The notes under the pieces were generated by a model. The model did not search any database and was not told the DNA's origin. It worked only from the letters and a program-made list of their open reading frames with translations. A stretch of 56,511 bases of DNA, taken from positions 1 to 56,511 of the forward strand of contig CANRCC010000008.1 of NCBI GenBank assembly GCA_947629025.1. The letters are read 5' to 3'. Made by a program: the position numbers and the translations under genes. The DNA is from an uncultured Bacilli bacterium (lineage in GTDB: Bacteria > Bacillota_I > Bacilli_A > RF39 > UBA660). Positions 5,932 to 39,915 of this stretch are shown here, piece by piece. Each line of letters opens with the position of its first letter. The first letter of the stretch is position 1.

Positions 5932-6552
5932 ATGAGTAACAAATATAAAAAAATTGTAGTAAATAATGAAGTTGTAATTAGATTAGATGATGAAAATATA
6001 GATTACATTATAAAAGATACTAAAAATTTAATAAAATTTTGTGATAAAAATAACTATAATGTATCGCTAATTTATAATGGGAAAAAGATAGATGAAAAAT
6101 ACTTAAAGAAAGATATTAAAGATAATTTAAGAGATATGATTACTATAATGCACGCTATAAATATAAAAGACAAATATAAAAGATATGATTATATATATGA
6201 TACAGTATGTAATTATTTAGATGAGAAAATAAAAACTAATTATTGTGAATTTAAAGATGATGTATGTTTAAAATATAGAATTAAAAATCCAAATCATAAA
6301 AATGGTTGCTGCGAATGTAAAGGAAGAGGTAAGTGCAAATACTTAATTGATAGTGTATGCACAATGAAATCTTGTATGGCATGTAAATTATTTACTTGTC
6401 ATACTCTTAAGAAAAAGGGTATAAATCAAAATATAAATGATTTTGTACTAACAAAATATTTCTTTAATAATAAAGAAAAAGATATACTTCAGTTTAGTTA
6501 CTGGACTCCAAAAGAAATAGTTATGGAAAAGTTAATAAAAAGAGTGAGATAA
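5932..6552 (+). CDS. Cysteine-rich protein of unknown function, tandem copy 2
   Basis: Paralogue of the preceding gene, 8 bases downstream of its stop. The 206 residues repeat the same layout: an N-terminal NxVVI...LIKFCDKNNYN segment, then YDTVCNYLDEK, CEFKDDVC, HKNGCC, GKCKYL, CMACKLFTC and a C-terminal TKYFFNNKEKD. The conserved cysteines and the matching flanks show a tandem duplication followed by divergence. The molecular role is unknown; a metal-binding cytosolic protein is a guess from the Cys pattern. The start is the ATG at 5932 behind AGGTG. The gene ends inside a terminator hairpin, so copy 2 closes the serS transcript. Confidence 0.75.
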   Translation: MSNKYKKIVVNNEVVIRLDDENIDYIIKDTKNLIKFCDKNNYNVSLIYNGKKIDEKYLKKDIKDNLRDMITIMHAINIKDKYKRYDYIYDTVCNYLDEKIKTNYCEFKDDVCLKYRIKNPNHKNGCCECKGRGKCKYLIDSVCTMKSCMACKLFTCHTLKKKGINQNINDFVLTKYFFNNKEKDILQFSYWTPKEIVMEKLIKRVR

Positions 6553-34390: not shown

Positions 34391-34510
34391 AAAAATTTGT
34401 AATAAATTTGTAAATAAATTTAAAAACAAGGTATCATTATAAATTCATATTTATTTACTTTTGCATAATTTTCATAAATATATTATAATTTTTTTAAAGA
34501 GGTAATGAAT

Positions 34511-35419
34511 ATGAAAGAAGAAATACTTGAATTTTATAGAAAAACAAGTTTATATACAGATTTGGGATTATATAGGGATTTTGCTATAAATTTACCTGAT
34601 GATATTATGCAGTTATGTATTCTTAATAGAAATCAACTAATTCATCCATTTGATCTTAAAGATGAGGAAGAAAGAAAAAATAAAAATAGTTTTTATGGGG
34701 ATATGACTAAAATTCCAGAAACTACTTTGATATTTGAAAATGATTTATTTCCAACTGCTATAGCTATACTATCAGAACTATTAAGAAGAGATCCAAATTA
34801 TTCTGTTGATAGGGATATATTAGATAAAGTACATGTATGTTGTAGAGAAACATCTATTTTACTGATAAGTATTTTAAAAGCAAAAGGAATACCTGCTAGA
34901 TGTCGTAGTGGTTTTACTCATTATATAAGTGAAATAGATGGTGCAGGAGATCATTGGATAGTCGAATTCTATGATAAAGAAGAAAAAAGGTGGAAATTAG
35001 TTGATCCAACTATGTGTTATAGTGAAGAAATATTAAAAGAATATGGTATTGATTTTAATTTAGTTGATATGCCAAAAGAAAAATTTATTTTTGGTGCACA
35101 AGCTTATCTTGGAATTAGAAATGGAAAATACAAAAGCAAAGATATTTATTGTTTTTCTAATCCTTATACATATGGTATTGAAGCTTCTATTAATGCATTA
35201 TTTTATGACTTCCATTGTTTAATGAATGATGAAATTATCTTTTTACAACATCCTAAATATTTACGTGATAAAGATTTTAAATTGACTGAAGAAGAATATA
35301 AAGAATTAGACAATCTTGCTACATTAATGCTTGAACCTAATGATAATTTTGATAAATTATTGACATTATGGAATAATAATCCAAAATTTAGAATAATGTC
35401 AGGTGGAATGAATGGATAA
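34511..35419 (+). CDS. Transglutaminase-like (papain-fold) protein
   Basis: 302 residues with a clear transglutaminase-core triad: Cys110/111 in VHVCCRETSILLISILKAKGIPAR, His148 in GAGDHWIVEFYD and Asp165 in WKLVDPTM. These domains act as peptidases, amidases or cross-linking enzymes; bacterial cytosolic versions are mostly uncharacterised. No signal peptide, so it acts inside the cell. The C-terminal 130 residues (YLGIRNGKYKSKDIYCFSN, then helices) are an accessory region I do not recognise. The start at 34511 is preferred over ATG 34505 because AAAGAGG is better spaced. Neighbours are an ART-like gene and a GNAT gene. Confidence 0.8.
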   Translation: MKEEILEFYRKTSLYTDLGLYRDFAINLPDDIMQLCILNRNQLIHPFDLKDEEERKNKNSFYGDMTKIPETTLIFENDLFPTAIAILSELLRRDPNYSVDRDILDKVHVCCRETSILLISILKAKGIPARCRSGFTHYISEIDGAGDHWIVEFYDKEEKRWKLVDPTMCYSEEILKEYGIDFNLVDMPKEKFIFGAQAYLGIRNGKYKSKDIYCFSNPYTYGIEASINALFYDFHCLMNDEIIFLQHPKYLRDKDFKLTEEEYKELDNLATLMLEPNDNFDKLLTLWNNNPKFRIMSGGMNG

Positions 35420-35487: not shown

Positions 35488-36024
35488 ATGGAATCAGAAT
35501 ATAATTTAACCTATGTAAAAATTAATAAAGATACCGTTGATATAGCCTTTGATATTCAAAAATCAATATGGCCAAAAGATCCAGACTATAATGATTTATA
35601 TGACAAAGCAATAAATCCATTAGATGATAATTGCTTTTTTCTAGTTTATTATAAAGAAAAATTAATAGGTATCACTGGTGTTGATGTTTTTAGAGAATAT
35701 CCAGATACAATATGGTTAGATTGGTTTGCTATATTACCAGAATTTAGAAAAATGGGATATGGTGAAAAAGTTTTACTTGATACGATAAATTATTGTAAAC
35801 ATTTAAAAAGGTATAAAAGTTTCAGAGTTGAAACGACATATTATAAAGATAGACCAGCTTTATTTTTATATGATAAAGTTATGCATTATAAAGAAAATTA
35901 TACCATAGAAAATACTAAAGATAATAAGACCCAAACGTTAATATATACGTATGTTTTAAATGGAAATTTAGAACTATGGAATAATAGATATTTAGGATTA
36001 AGAAAATATTATGATAATTTATAG
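35488..36024 (+). CDS. GNAT-family N-acetyltransferase
   Basis: 178 residues. The central part matches the GNAT fold: FFLVYYKEKLIGITGVDVF (beta strands), TIWLDWFAILPEFRKMGYGEKVLLDTI with the acetyl-CoA loop RKMGYG near residue 90, and a C-terminal FRVETTYYKDRPALFLYDKV. It would transfer an acetyl group from acetyl-CoA to an amine; substrate unknown. AAAGGAG lies 13 bases upstream of ATG 35488, rather far. It could be cotranscribed with the transglutaminase-like gene 68 bases upstream or have its own weak promoter. Confidence 0.85.
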   Translation: MESEYNLTYVKINKDTVDIAFDIQKSIWPKDPDYNDLYDKAINPLDDNCFFLVYYKEKLIGITGVDVFREYPDTIWLDWFAILPEFRKMGYGEKVLLDTINYCKHLKRYKSFRVETTYYKDRPALFLYDKVMHYKENYTIENTKDNKTQTLIYTYVLNGNLELWNNRYLGLRKYYDNL

Positions 36025-36078
36025 ATTGTTTAATTTTATAATATAGTAATTATAAATAATAAAGGTGTTGATATAAAA

Positions 36079-37467
36079 ATGAAAATACTGATAGCTGGTT
36101 TTGATGGAGATGACAATTCAGCAAAGATATTATTAGATAATATAAAACAGAAAAGTAATAAAGATATTTTGTATTTGGAAAATGATTTTGAAAAGAGTAG
36201 TGAACAAATACAACAAAAACTACAAAAAAATTATGATTATGTGTTGATTTTTGGGCAAAAACCAAACACAAATAATATATATTTAGAAAATAGTGCGACT
36301 TTAAAAGAAAAAACATTAGTAACTGATTTTTATTATGGTGTATTAAAAGAAAAATTAGAAAATAGTACTTATAAAGTTGTAAGTTCATGTGATGCGGGAA
36401 ATTATTTATGTAATAATGTATTTTTTAGTGCATTAATATATAAACAAGAAAAAAATTTAAAAACAAAAATTGCTTTTATACATATTCCAACTATTGAAAA
36501 TATTAATGATATAAAAAAATTGTCAAATACAATATTAGACTATATAAAAACATTAACAGATATTTTTAGTATAGCATTATTACAATTAAATCCAACAGAT
36601 TCCATGAAAGGTAATATGATAAAAGGTATTGAGTATTGTAAAAAAGCAAAAGAAATGGGAGCAGATATTGCAGTGTTTCCAGAAATGTGGAATAACGGAT
36701 ACGAAATGCTATTTGAAGGAGATTTAAAAGATCAAAAAAATATATCAAAAGAAAAAATAAAAAAATGGAATAACAAAGCAATAACTAATAATGATGATTT
36801 TATTAAAAACTATATTAATTTGGCAAAACAAATCAATATGGCAATAGCAATTACCTATTTAGAAAAAACAAAAGACAAACCTAAAAATACAGTTATTATA
36901 ATTGATAAAAATGGAAATATTGTATTAAAGTATTCAAAAGTACATACAGTTGATTTTAAAATGGAAGCCTATATTAAGCCAGGTACTGAATTTAAAACCT
37001 GTGAGTTAGATTATGGAAATGGAAAAGTAAAATTAGGTACAATGATTTGCTTTGATAGAGATTTTCCAGAAAGTGCAAGAATTTTAATGTTACAAGGAAG
37101 TGAAATTATTCTTGTTGCAAATGCATGTTATATGTCGAAAATAAGACTTGAACAATTAAAAGTAAGGGCATATGAAAATATGTTAGGTATTGTAACAGTA
37201 AATTATGCAAATCATGGAGGTAAATCTTCTGCATATAGCCCAATAGTAAGAAATATAAATAAACATGATTTAGATAATGAATTATTAGTAATGAATGATA
37301 AAGAAGATATTAAAATTGTACAATTCAATATGAGTGAAATTAGAGAATATAGAAGTAGAGAAACATTAGCAGATGCGTATAGAAAACCATATGCATATAG
37401 AAAATTAATTGAAAATACTGTGCAAAATCCTTTTATAAGAAAAGATGCAAGAAGAAATAAAACTTAA
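36079..37467 (+). CDS. Fusion of pyroglutamyl peptidase I-like and carbon-nitrogen hydrolase (nitrilase) domains
   Basis: 462 residues, two enzymes in one chain. Residues 1-160 follow peptidase C15: MKILIAGFDG opening, Glu70 in NIYLENSA, nucleophile Cys111 in CDAGNYLCNNVFF and His135 in IAFIHIP. The Cys-His distance (24) equals that of known PCP-I; the Glu-Cys distance is shorter. Residues about 165-440 are a nitrilase domain with Glu202 (FPEMWNNGY), Lys287 (YSKVH) and Cys324 (GTMICFDRDFPESAR). Both triads are intact. It might release pyroglutamate or other N-terminal amides and then hydrolyse an amide. Substrate unknown. ATG 36079 follows AAAGGTG. Cytosolic. Confidence 0.75.
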   Translation: MKILIAGFDGDDNSAKILLDNIKQKSNKDILYLENDFEKSSEQIQQKLQKNYDYVLIFGQKPNTNNIYLENSATLKEKTLVTDFYYGVLKEKLENSTYKVVSSCDAGNYLCNNVFFSALIYKQEKNLKTKIAFIHIPTIENINDIKKLSNTILDYIKTLTDIFSIALLQLNPTDSMKGNMIKGIEYCKKAKEMGADIAVFPEMWNNGYEMLFEGDLKDQKNISKEKIKKWNNKAITNNDDFIKNYINLAKQINMAIAITYLEKTKDKPKNTVIIIDKNGNIVLKYSKVHTVDFKMEAYIKPGTEFKTCELDYGNGKVKLGTMICFDRDFPESARILMLQGSEIILVANACYMSKIRLEQLKVRAYENMLGIVTVNYANHGGKSSAYSPIVRNINKHDLDNELLVMNDKEDIKIVQFNMSEIREYRSRETLADAYRKPYAYRKLIENTVQNPFIRKDARRNKT

Positions 37468-37980: not shown

Positions 37981-38013
37981 ATGACACGTTATTTAAGAAG
38001 AGGGGGATTTTAT

Positions 38014-39915
38014 ATGAATATTGAAAAAAATCATTCAACTTTCATAAGGGATTTATTAATAAAAGTAGTATTAATAGTTTTATTTGTATTTTTACTTACA
38101 TTTTTATTCCCTATGCCTAATTTAAAAACATTTTATGATGCAGTATTTAACAATAATGTTCAAACAATGAAAGAAGCTGCAGAAGATTGGTTCACAAAAG
38201 ATAGAATGCCATCTGAAGTAGGTAAAGAAGAAACTTTAACACTTCAAGAAATGCTTGATAAAAAATTAATATTACCATTCTTAGATAAAGATGGTAAACA
38301 ATGTGATACTGAAAAGTCATATGTAACTGTAAGAAAAGAAGAAAAAGAATATATACTTAAGGTATATTTATCATGTAATGGCAAATCAGATTATATAATA
38401 GAACCAATAGGATGTTATAATTTCTGTCCAGATGGATCATGTAGTCAGCCTTTAGTTGAAACAGATAATAAAACAGGTGAGGTAGTAGTTAATGTACCAT
38501 CTAATAATAAAAAACCAGGTAATAAACCAGTTATAACTACTGATGATAATGGTGATAAGTATAAATTACAATATTTATACACTAGAAAATTAGAAAATGG
38601 TAAATGGACTACTGGAGAATGGCAAAATTCAAAAGAAAAGGAATCTGACATAATTAAACTTGTAGATAAGAGAACTCAATATACTGGACAAAAAAAGGTT
38701 GAAAAGGGTAAAACATTATACAAACATGAAAAACATGCATTTAAAGATAAATGGACTTATGATACAGGATGGTTAGATGAGGTTAAAACTTTAACTGAAA
38801 ACGTTAAGTTATATGCTAAGAGAACTTTATATCATGGACAAAAGAAAATAACTACAAAAACTACAAAGTATAAACATATAAAATATGGATATAAGGATAA
38901 TTGGACAACATTAGACTGGTCAACAACAAAAAGAAATACATCTGATACTGTTGTATTAGTTGATACAAGATATACTGTTAGAAAGACTATTAATAAAAAA
39001 GAAGGATCTTGGAGTGCATGGAAAAATGATGATACATGGAGAACATCAAAACCAGCTGATACATCAACAAAACAATGGAAAGGTCCTTATGATACACAAA
39101 CTAACACTTCTTGGAAAGTTATATATAATTCATATTCTTCAAGAACAGTATTAGGTACTTATGTAGGAGATAGATGGAATGAATTATTATATTCACAAAT
39201 GGAAGATTGTACAAGTGCTTGTGGTGGAAAATCTAAAATAAGAATATATTATTATAGAGTTCATCAAAAACAAGTAAGTTATAAATATAAATATCAATAT
39301 AGAACTTATTCTGAAACTACTAAAACATCAACAGATGAAAAAGTAGTATCAGGTAGTGAAAAAGATAAATATGTTAAAGATGGTTATACTGTTGTTAAAA
39401 CAGAATATAAATATAAGATAAACAATAGAGAAAAATATATAGAAGATACTGTATGGACTGATTCAAAAACACCACCAGCAGGATATGAATATGCTAAAGA
39501 AGCAAGTGAAACAACTGTTATTAAGTATGAAAACTTAGGTGTTTGGGTAAAAAGCAAGTCTAAATTAGGAGAATATACTTATAATGTTACAACAAGAGTT
39601 CAATATAAATATAGATATAATAATCCACAAGAATATATAGAAGATACAGTATGGACTGAATCAATTACTCCGCCAAAAGGTTATACATATACTGGTGAAA
39701 CTAAAACAAGTACAAGTTCATCATATGTTGACCTAGGTAAATGGGTAAATAGTAAAGAAGAATTAGGAGAATATACTCATAATATCGAAAAGAGAACACA
39801 ATATAAGTATAAATATTATACAAGTACATCAACATCTGAAAGTAGATGGTTCGATAGTGACCCAGGAGGAGATTGGGTATATGCTAACCAAACAAGAAAA
39901 ATTAAGATAAACTAA
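38014..39915 (+). CDS. Large membrane-anchored surface protein with pilin-like domain and Trp/Tyr-rich repeats (family member 2)
   Basis: 633 residues. A membrane anchor (about 12-32, LLIKVVLIVLFVFLLTFLF) is followed by the same domain type as in the proteins at 21450 and 54569 (MKEAAEDWF, LTLQEMLDK, SYVTVRKEEKEYILKVYLSC). The rest, from about residue 180, is repetitive: early units with LENGKWTTGEWQ and KDKWTYDTGW, then at least three copies of KYKYKY...EYIEDTVWTxSxTPPxGYxY and LGxWVxSKxxLGEYTxN near the C-terminus. It is probably an extracellular adhesin or scaffold. ATG 38014 follows AGGGGG. No LPxTG motif, so it is held by the N-terminal helix. Confidence 0.7.
   Translation: MNIEKNHSTFIRDLLIKVVLIVLFVFLLTFLFPMPNLKTFYDAVFNNNVQTMKEAAEDWFTKDRMPSEVGKEETLTLQEMLDKKLILPFLDKDGKQCDTEKSYVTVRKEEKEYILKVYLSCNGKSDYIIEPIGCYNFCPDGSCSQPLVETDNKTGEVVVNVPSNNKKPGNKPVITTDDNGDKYKLQYLYTRKLENGKWTTGEWQNSKEKESDIIKLVDKRTQYTGQKKVEKGKTLYKHEKHAFKDKWTYDTGWLDEVKTLTENVKLYAKRTLYHGQKKITTKTTKYKHIKYGYKDNWTTLDWSTTKRNTSDTVVLVDTRYTVRKTINKKEGSWSAWKNDDTWRTSKPADTSTKQWKGPYDTQTNTSWKVIYNSYSSRTVLGTYVGDRWNELLYSQMEDCTSACGGKSKIRIYYYRVHQKQVSYKYKYQYRTYSETTKTSTDEKVVSGSEKDKYVKDGYTVVKTEYKYKINNREKYIEDTVWTDSKTPPAGYEYAKEASETTVIKYENLGVWVKSKSKLGEYTYNVTTRVQYKYRYNNPQEYIEDTVWTESITPPKGYTYTGETKTSTSSSYVDLGKWVNSKEELGEYTHNIEKRTQYKYKYYTSTSTSESRWFDSDPGGDWVYANQTRKIKIN

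Follow-up and report, generated by a model that had tools for sequence, protein, structure and literature searches.

A reduced C15-type peptidase domain fused to a nitrilase-superfamily domain in an uncultured Bacilli bacterium

Pyroglutamyl peptidase I, or pyrrolidone carboxyl peptidase (MEROPS C15, PF01470; structures 5z47, 1iof and 1aug), is a protein of 200-220 residues in which the catalytic Glu and Cys are 63 positions apart and the Cys and His 24. Within the nitrilase superfamily, N-carbamoylputrescine amidase (MtCPA, 5h8i-5h8l), Nit2/omega-amidase (2w1v) and PH0642 (1j31, 6ypa) share a fold and a Glu-Lys-Cys triad, and members of this superfamily are also found joined to a second enzyme, as in Nit-Fhit and other fusions (e.g. 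PDB 1ems). In Nit-Fhit, which PMC9913352 discusses as a Rosetta-stone case, the partner is a histidine-triad protein.

The protein described here, from an uncultured gut bacterium, is encoded within a window of 56,511 nucleotides (i.e. the whole stretch of DNA that was analysed) and also joins a nitrilase to a second enzyme, its partner being a C15 peptidase instead. The N-terminal half shares with pyroglutamyl peptidase I the fold, the order and identity of the triad residues and the Cys-His spacing of 24, but it comprises ~160 residues, has no PF loop and no 'NInDA..PDN' stretch, ends in a shorter C-terminus and is attached to another enzyme; its Glu-Cys distance is 41 as compared to 63 in the normal peptidase, and the domain is therefore ~45 residues shorter. 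The C-terminal half has the fold and triad of MtCPA, Nit2 and PH0642, which are among its best Foldseek and phmmer matches at 18-24% identity over the Foldseek alignments, yet only the fusion has an N-terminal C15 domain. Its direct relatives are unnamed 'carbon-nitrogen hydrolase family proteins' (from Listeria, Monoglobus, Lachnospiraceae and others), mostly 41-51% identical and without C15. Both domains are thus of known kinds, and it is their pairing that is absent from the literature searched: at the level of titles and abstracts no C15-nitrilase fusion was found, in line with an earlier note on this DNA, made from the sequence alone, which knew of no characterised enzyme of this composition. 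The short list of nitrilase fusions thereby gains a partner, although an unpublished database entry of the same architecture likely exists.

Two hydrolase domains in one open reading frame

The fusion is encoded by a complete open reading frame with zero internal stops. The complementary frame on the opposite strand contains many stops, and a 112-aa minus-strand frame (36050-36388) overlaps the gene. The features are:

36079-37467, plus strand: complete fusion open reading frame, 462 amino acids plus stop (ATG at 36079, stop at 37465-37467)
36079-36552, plus strand: minimal C15-type peptidase domain, residues 1-158 (Pfam, genome-level PF01470 search, hhalign, AlphaFold2, Foldseek/VIA)
36286-36288, plus strand: Glu70, proposed Glu of the C15 triad (alignment with five full-size C15 enzymes; 13/13 intact fusions)
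36409-36411, plus strand: Cys111, proposed C15 nucleophile (same alignment; 12/13 intact fusions, Tyr in L050)
36481-36483, plus strand: His135, proposed His of the C15 triad (same alignment; 13/13 intact fusions)
36553-36561, plus strand: short inter-domain junction without a long linker, residues 159-161 (whole-protein model)
36562-37455, plus strand: carbon-nitrogen hydrolase (nitrilase superfamily) domain, residues 162-459 (Pfam 165-402; Foldseek)
36682-36684, plus strand: Glu202, nitrilase triad (invariant, 37/37 aligned rows)
36937-36939, plus strand: Lys287, nitrilase triad (invariant, 37/37 aligned rows)
37048-37050, plus strand: Cys324, nitrilase triad (invariant, 37/37 aligned rows)

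Pfam recognises both domains above their cut-offs, Peptidase_C15 at residues 102-141 (1.7e-8, 35.2 bits versus 22.7) and CN_hydrolase (PF00795) at residues 165-402 (1.3e-32, 113.6 bits versus 23.2). In the whole-protein model (pLDDT 89.0, pTM 0.85) the nitrilase strand E162-169 begins immediately past helix 145-159. The earlier note had read the protein as a C15-type and a carbon-nitrogen hydrolase domain with a triad in each; this reading holds, all six residues lying exactly where it had placed them.

The Pfam match to C15 covers only the surroundings of the Cys and His. In a genome-level search a second PF01470 stretch (profile positions 33-82, around the catalytic Glu) was recovered. It precedes the Cys/His stretch (133-172) and is collinear with it, the two together scoring 38.8 bits. 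Profile-profile comparison (hhalign) of five short with five full-size C15 sequences from the same class gave a probability of 99.4 and an E-value of 2.4e-21 over 142 columns. An AlphaFold2 model of residues 1-161, for which only the window and relative sequences served as input, reached a mean pLDDT of 92.2 and a pTM of 0.88. When this model was compared with the PDB, Foldseek ranks 1-34 were all pyrrolidone carboxyl or pyroglutamyl peptidases, with E-values between 1.7e-10 and 5.1e-8, the first non-peptidase row being a nucleosidase (E 1.1e-4), and VIA gave Z-scores of 17.4-19.4 for peptidases versus 14.1 for the best non-peptidase (top match 5z47_B: Z 19.4, rmsd 2.5, 160 residues). The N-terminal fold is therefore that of C15. 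A model of residues 1-160 lacking this fold is what the earlier note had named as evidence against itself, and the opposite was found.

Alignment with full-size enzymes likewise bears out the proposed triad E70-C111-H135, in which the Cys-His spacing of 24 equals that of most full-size peptidases examined. The triad is complete in 12 of the 13 intact fusions and in 16/17 distinct short C15 sequences, lone ones included (24 rows, 7 of them duplicates). The PF01470 gathering cut-off was also passed by all eight other short-C15 proteins scanned, namely two fusions (G051 and G044) and six lone proteins.

As to the C-terminal half, every one of the 50 Foldseek matches listed for the whole-protein model belongs to the nitrilase superfamily (best E 3.8e-21), led by plant N-carbamoylputrescine amidase, mouse Nit2 (2w1v, rank 2) and the PH0642 amidase. 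The fold, together with the invariance of E202-K287-C324, supports the assignment of a carbon-nitrogen hydrolase triad to these residues. No NCBIfam equivalog cut-off was reached by the fusion or by four lone nitrilase relatives; for N-carbamoylputrescine amidase (TIGR03381, AguB) the score was 80.3 bits versus 410.25. This half is very probably an amidase of an unnamed nitrilase subfamily.

The reduced C15 domain

Three parts of the five full-size enzymes have no counterpart in the fusion C15. The first loop is without its 'PF' residues (a gap of 4 positions), a gap of 22 residues opens immediately behind the catalytic Glu and takes out the 'NInDA..PDN..' stretch, and the C-terminus is in part missing. 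In a set of 84 aligned rows (8 of which are second copies; two pieces of locus L187 were excluded) the Glu-Cys distance separates three groups, i.e. short (39-41; 24 rows, 17 distinct), mid-size (52-56; 8 rows) and full-size (59-66; 52 rows), and the complete Glu-Cys-His set is found in 23/24 short, 8/8 mid-size and 52/52 full-size rows. The fusion thus exemplifies a reduced form of C15, in which the triad is kept and part of the usual pocket is lost. We take it that the canonical pyroglutamate pocket draws on residues in both the post-Glu segment and the PF loop. A retained triad in a re-cut pocket suggests an active enzyme with a changed specificity.

These deletions bear directly on the name that the earlier note had given to this half. 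The fold and triad of its C15 reading are supported, whereas the pyroglutamyl specificity is not, and the reduction had escaped it: the protein fails the cut-offs for pyroglutamyl peptidase I by a wide margin (TIGR00504, equivalog, 23.2 bits versus 201.75; NF009676, subfamily, 38.7 bits versus 199) and is without the post-Glu segment and the PF loop. A true pyroglutamyl peptidase that clears N-terminal pyroglutamate from gut peptides, with the nitrilase as a general amidase fused for convenience, would share the fold and triad seen here. It would also fit the alignment of Q60 and F8 with the full-size enzymes and the conservation of Q60, the Gln before the Glu motif, in 11/13 intact fusions (Ser in L056, Glu in L061). 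The source genome holds no other C15 above cut-off, so that this domain could be the cell's only one. Against this explanation stand, besides the failed cut-offs and the deletion of what we assume to be parts of the pocket, the search for a PxpA-type 5-oxoprolinase to take over the released pyroglutamate, which gave nothing above cut-off in the source genome (91% complete). We consider the explanation doubtful, and N-terminal pyroglutamate is in our view an unlikely substrate.

Short C15 domains also occur in other settings. One, in G044, lies at the C-terminus of a DUF5677 protein (L005:439-1974, identical to L036; Pfam 2.7e-23 and 4.2e-12) and represents a second fusion partner. In two genera, lone short C15 genes (L024 and L025, identical to L042 and L043) lie directly downstream of, and overlap, a neighbouring gene that we take to be polA-like; at one of these loci the next gene presumably is an fpg/mutM relative. 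A link between the reduced C15 and a DNA-repair operon is possible at these loci.

Distribution, origin and selection

A scan of 84,980 species genomes yielded 61 loci (below, L-numbers denote loci and G-numbers genomes). At 17 of these (L049-L065) C15 and nitrilase occur together: 12 are intact, L064 is truncated where its contig stops, and L058, L060, L062 and L063 are broken. The 12 further intact fusions, located in other MAGs, are 71-89% identical overall, which rules out an assembly or frame artefact. The contig of L065 is the same as that of G051, and L066 and L071, at contig ends in one MAG, are the two ends of another fusion copy. The remaining loci mostly contain the nitrilase half alone (41-64% identical).

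Within the source family the short C15 was matched in 13/386 genomes. Nine of these matches lie in open frames that read as C15, i.e. two nitrilase fusions (G000 and G051), the DUF5677 fusion (G044) and six lone proteins; the other four comprise three matches in frames broken by stops and one false match. Matches to C15 in the 505-522-aa frames of G117, G181, G420, G452 and G454, which we take to resemble phosphoglycerate mutase, were dropped as chance, as was a match in G273 that sits in a frame of another protein type, presumably a reductase; a match in G020 contains 9 internal stops. Within the source genus, the nitrilase occurs unaccompanied by C15 in G007, and neither half was matched in the six further members that were searched.

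A mobile element was considered and rejected, as no fusion turned up in viral contigs, phages or plasmids. The viral contigs gave pattern matches but no fusion relatives by tblastn, and among the matches listed for phages and plasmids only the nitrilase half occurs, none covering 80% of the query and all being below 60% identity.

Two MAGs have two fusion copies each (L057 with L059, and L051 with L052). The nitrilase halves of L057 and L059 are without codon differences while their C15 halves differ (dN 0.057), a pattern that reflects gene conversion, recent recombination or a binning error.

The fusion arose once. The 13 fusions form one side of a branch in a tree built from 48 nitrilase domains (support 99/95; 100% of 200 bootstrap trees), and this clade adjoins three nitrilase-only proteins. 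Both halves are under purifying selection, the C15 half being constrained but more loosely: among the 78 pairs of intact fusions (76 and 77 usable) dN/dS has a median of 0.381 in the C15 half and of 0.203 in the nitrilase half, with values below 1 in all usable pairs (highest 0.842).

It is often the C15 half that fails. Cys111 is replaced by Tyr in a fusion that is otherwise intact (L050:6001-7386) and Tyr109 by Asp in L049, L060 and L062 share a one-base insertion in the C15 part (locus position 6168 onwards), and in L058 and L063 the frame breaks past the C15 part. This is real evidence against a universal need for C15 activity. Taken together with the higher dN/dS of C15 and with the nitrilase sufficing by itself in G007, G181, L067 and L070, it would fit a non-catalytic C15 half that binds substrate for the nitrilase, mediates its oligomerisation or regulates it, and that is being lost in several species. 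Such a domain would not need the Glu, Cys and His, which 12/13 intact fusions and almost every lone short C15 retain, and the dN/dS below 1 in all usable pairs speaks against it as well; we judge this explanation to be improbable.

In L060 and L062 the insertion places a CGG codon right after UUU. Slippage by +1 at this point, from UUU to UUC, would bring translation back into frame, and in both loci the shifted frame then continues without a stop to its end. No CGG occurs among 12,140 codons of the window (29 open reading frames) or in the longer open reading frames of L060 and L062, and no tRNA-Arg(CCG) was found among the 32, 34 and 28 tRNAs of the three genomes concerned, all of them incomplete. 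The pattern resembles a +1 frameshift, tolerated or programmed, at a codon that is not read.

Gene context and proposed function

Around the fusion gene the following features were found:

34505-35419, plus strand: transglutaminase-like gene, upstream, 68-bp gap to the next gene
35488-36024, plus strand: GNAT acetyltransferase gene, upstream, 54-bp gap to the fusion open reading frame
37981-39915: repetitive-looking 644-aa protein adjoining the fusion, without Pfam match at E 1

The transglutaminase-like and GNAT neighbours are not conserved around other fusions, and a conserved operon was discarded as an option, no gene cluster beyond that of the query being present in more than 6 of the 70 loci. 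As the neighbours are not conserved, there is no pathway partner that would indicate the substrate. A defence system was likewise rejected (no PADLOC match among 8 proteins), and a promoter scan gave 45 hits versus 48.1 expected, i.e. not above chance.

A clue from genome context was found in another family of the class. In G573 a nitrilase gene of the same subfamily as the fusion half (465 bits against a profile built from nitrilase-only relatives) shares 4 bp with a C15 gene that is read in the same direction; this C15 is mid-size (176 residues) and the gene order is opposite to that of the fusion. The pair is an operon pairing independent of the fusion. In the class sample of 395 genomes the C15 profile is matched in 105 and the nitrilase subfamily in 7, the latter being two fusions, the G573 pair and four genomes without a C15 match (G579, G590, G631 and G667), so that G573 is the only genome in the sample with both genes unfused. 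By rough estimate, chance adjacency in a genome of ~1,500 genes would occur in ~1 of 700 cases. The surroundings of 67 C15 loci were inspected, seven of them from the source family and the other 60 from 59 of the 105 genomes; G573 is the one case with such a nitrilase nearby, and no C15 neighbour was seen at the nitrilase-only loci examined. Lying outside the fusion clade, the G573 pair points to a shared pathway by way of a single case. Were the two enzymes unrelated, and their fusion an accident kept for co-expression only, the single origin, the patchy spread and the lack of conserved neighbours would all be accounted for, but the overlapping pair, with a C15 of a different size class, would be a coincidence; we hold this to be quite improbable.

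The explanation that we prefer, and to which as a whole we give an even chance, is that of a cytosolic bifunctional cysteine amidohydrolase, the two halves of which act in one small pathway. One chain would carry two separate cysteine-based sites for amide hydrolysis. The reduced C15 peptidase (Glu70-Cys111-His135), its pocket remodelled by the loss of ~26 residues, would cleave an amide that adjoins a lactam or a pyroglutamyl-like group, its substrate being a peptide or a small molecule. The nitrilase site (Glu202-Lys287-Cys324) would hydrolyse a carboxamide in the product or precursor. The cytosolic location is presumed because no signal sequence is visible; we infer catalytic activity, a linked pathway and the order of the reactions. 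In the source species the C15 half is probably catalytic, and we lean slightly towards a pathway shared by both halves. The earlier note had proposed that an amide product is hydrolysed once pyroglutamate has been removed, and such a coupling is possible; besides the fusion itself, the one piece of evidence for any coupling is the overlapping gene pair of G573. Points against the preferred explanation are the unconserved neighbours, the single case among 67 C15 loci, the faster evolution of and damage to C15, the nitrilase without C15 in G007 and the absence of a PxpA match in the 91% complete genome.

Opening of the pyroglutamate ring was considered unlikely as the nitrilase reaction, because cells are known to open this ring with ATP-driven 5-oxoprolinases. 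A more specific proposal, made by analogy and in our view a long shot, is that of a self-contained lactam-opening omega-amidase, in which the C15 site, reshaped to hold the ring of alpha-ketoglutaramate, would open it and pass the chain form to the omega-amidase-like domain. According to PMC10452834, alpha-ketoglutaramate (the keto acid of glutamine) exists for 99.7% as the closed lactam 2-hydroxy-5-oxoproline, and slow opening of the ring limits omega-amidase at neutral pH. The lactam is an analogue of pyroglutamate, and the proposal, if true, would account both for the union of a pyroglutamate-type fold with a nitrilase and for the altered pocket.

Since the same two types of enzyme are linked twice, in the fusion and in the overlapping genes of G573, a two-step amide pathway in gut bacteria can be put forward as a prediction amenable to assay. 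It could also reveal what a nitrilase subfamily does that is widespread (Listeria, Lachnospiraceae and others) but unnamed. A lone nitrilase of Listeria monocytogenes (L299:4986-5876), 47% identical, is annotated merely as 'carbon-nitrogen hydrolase family protein', and the subfamily therefore occurs in a culturable genus too.
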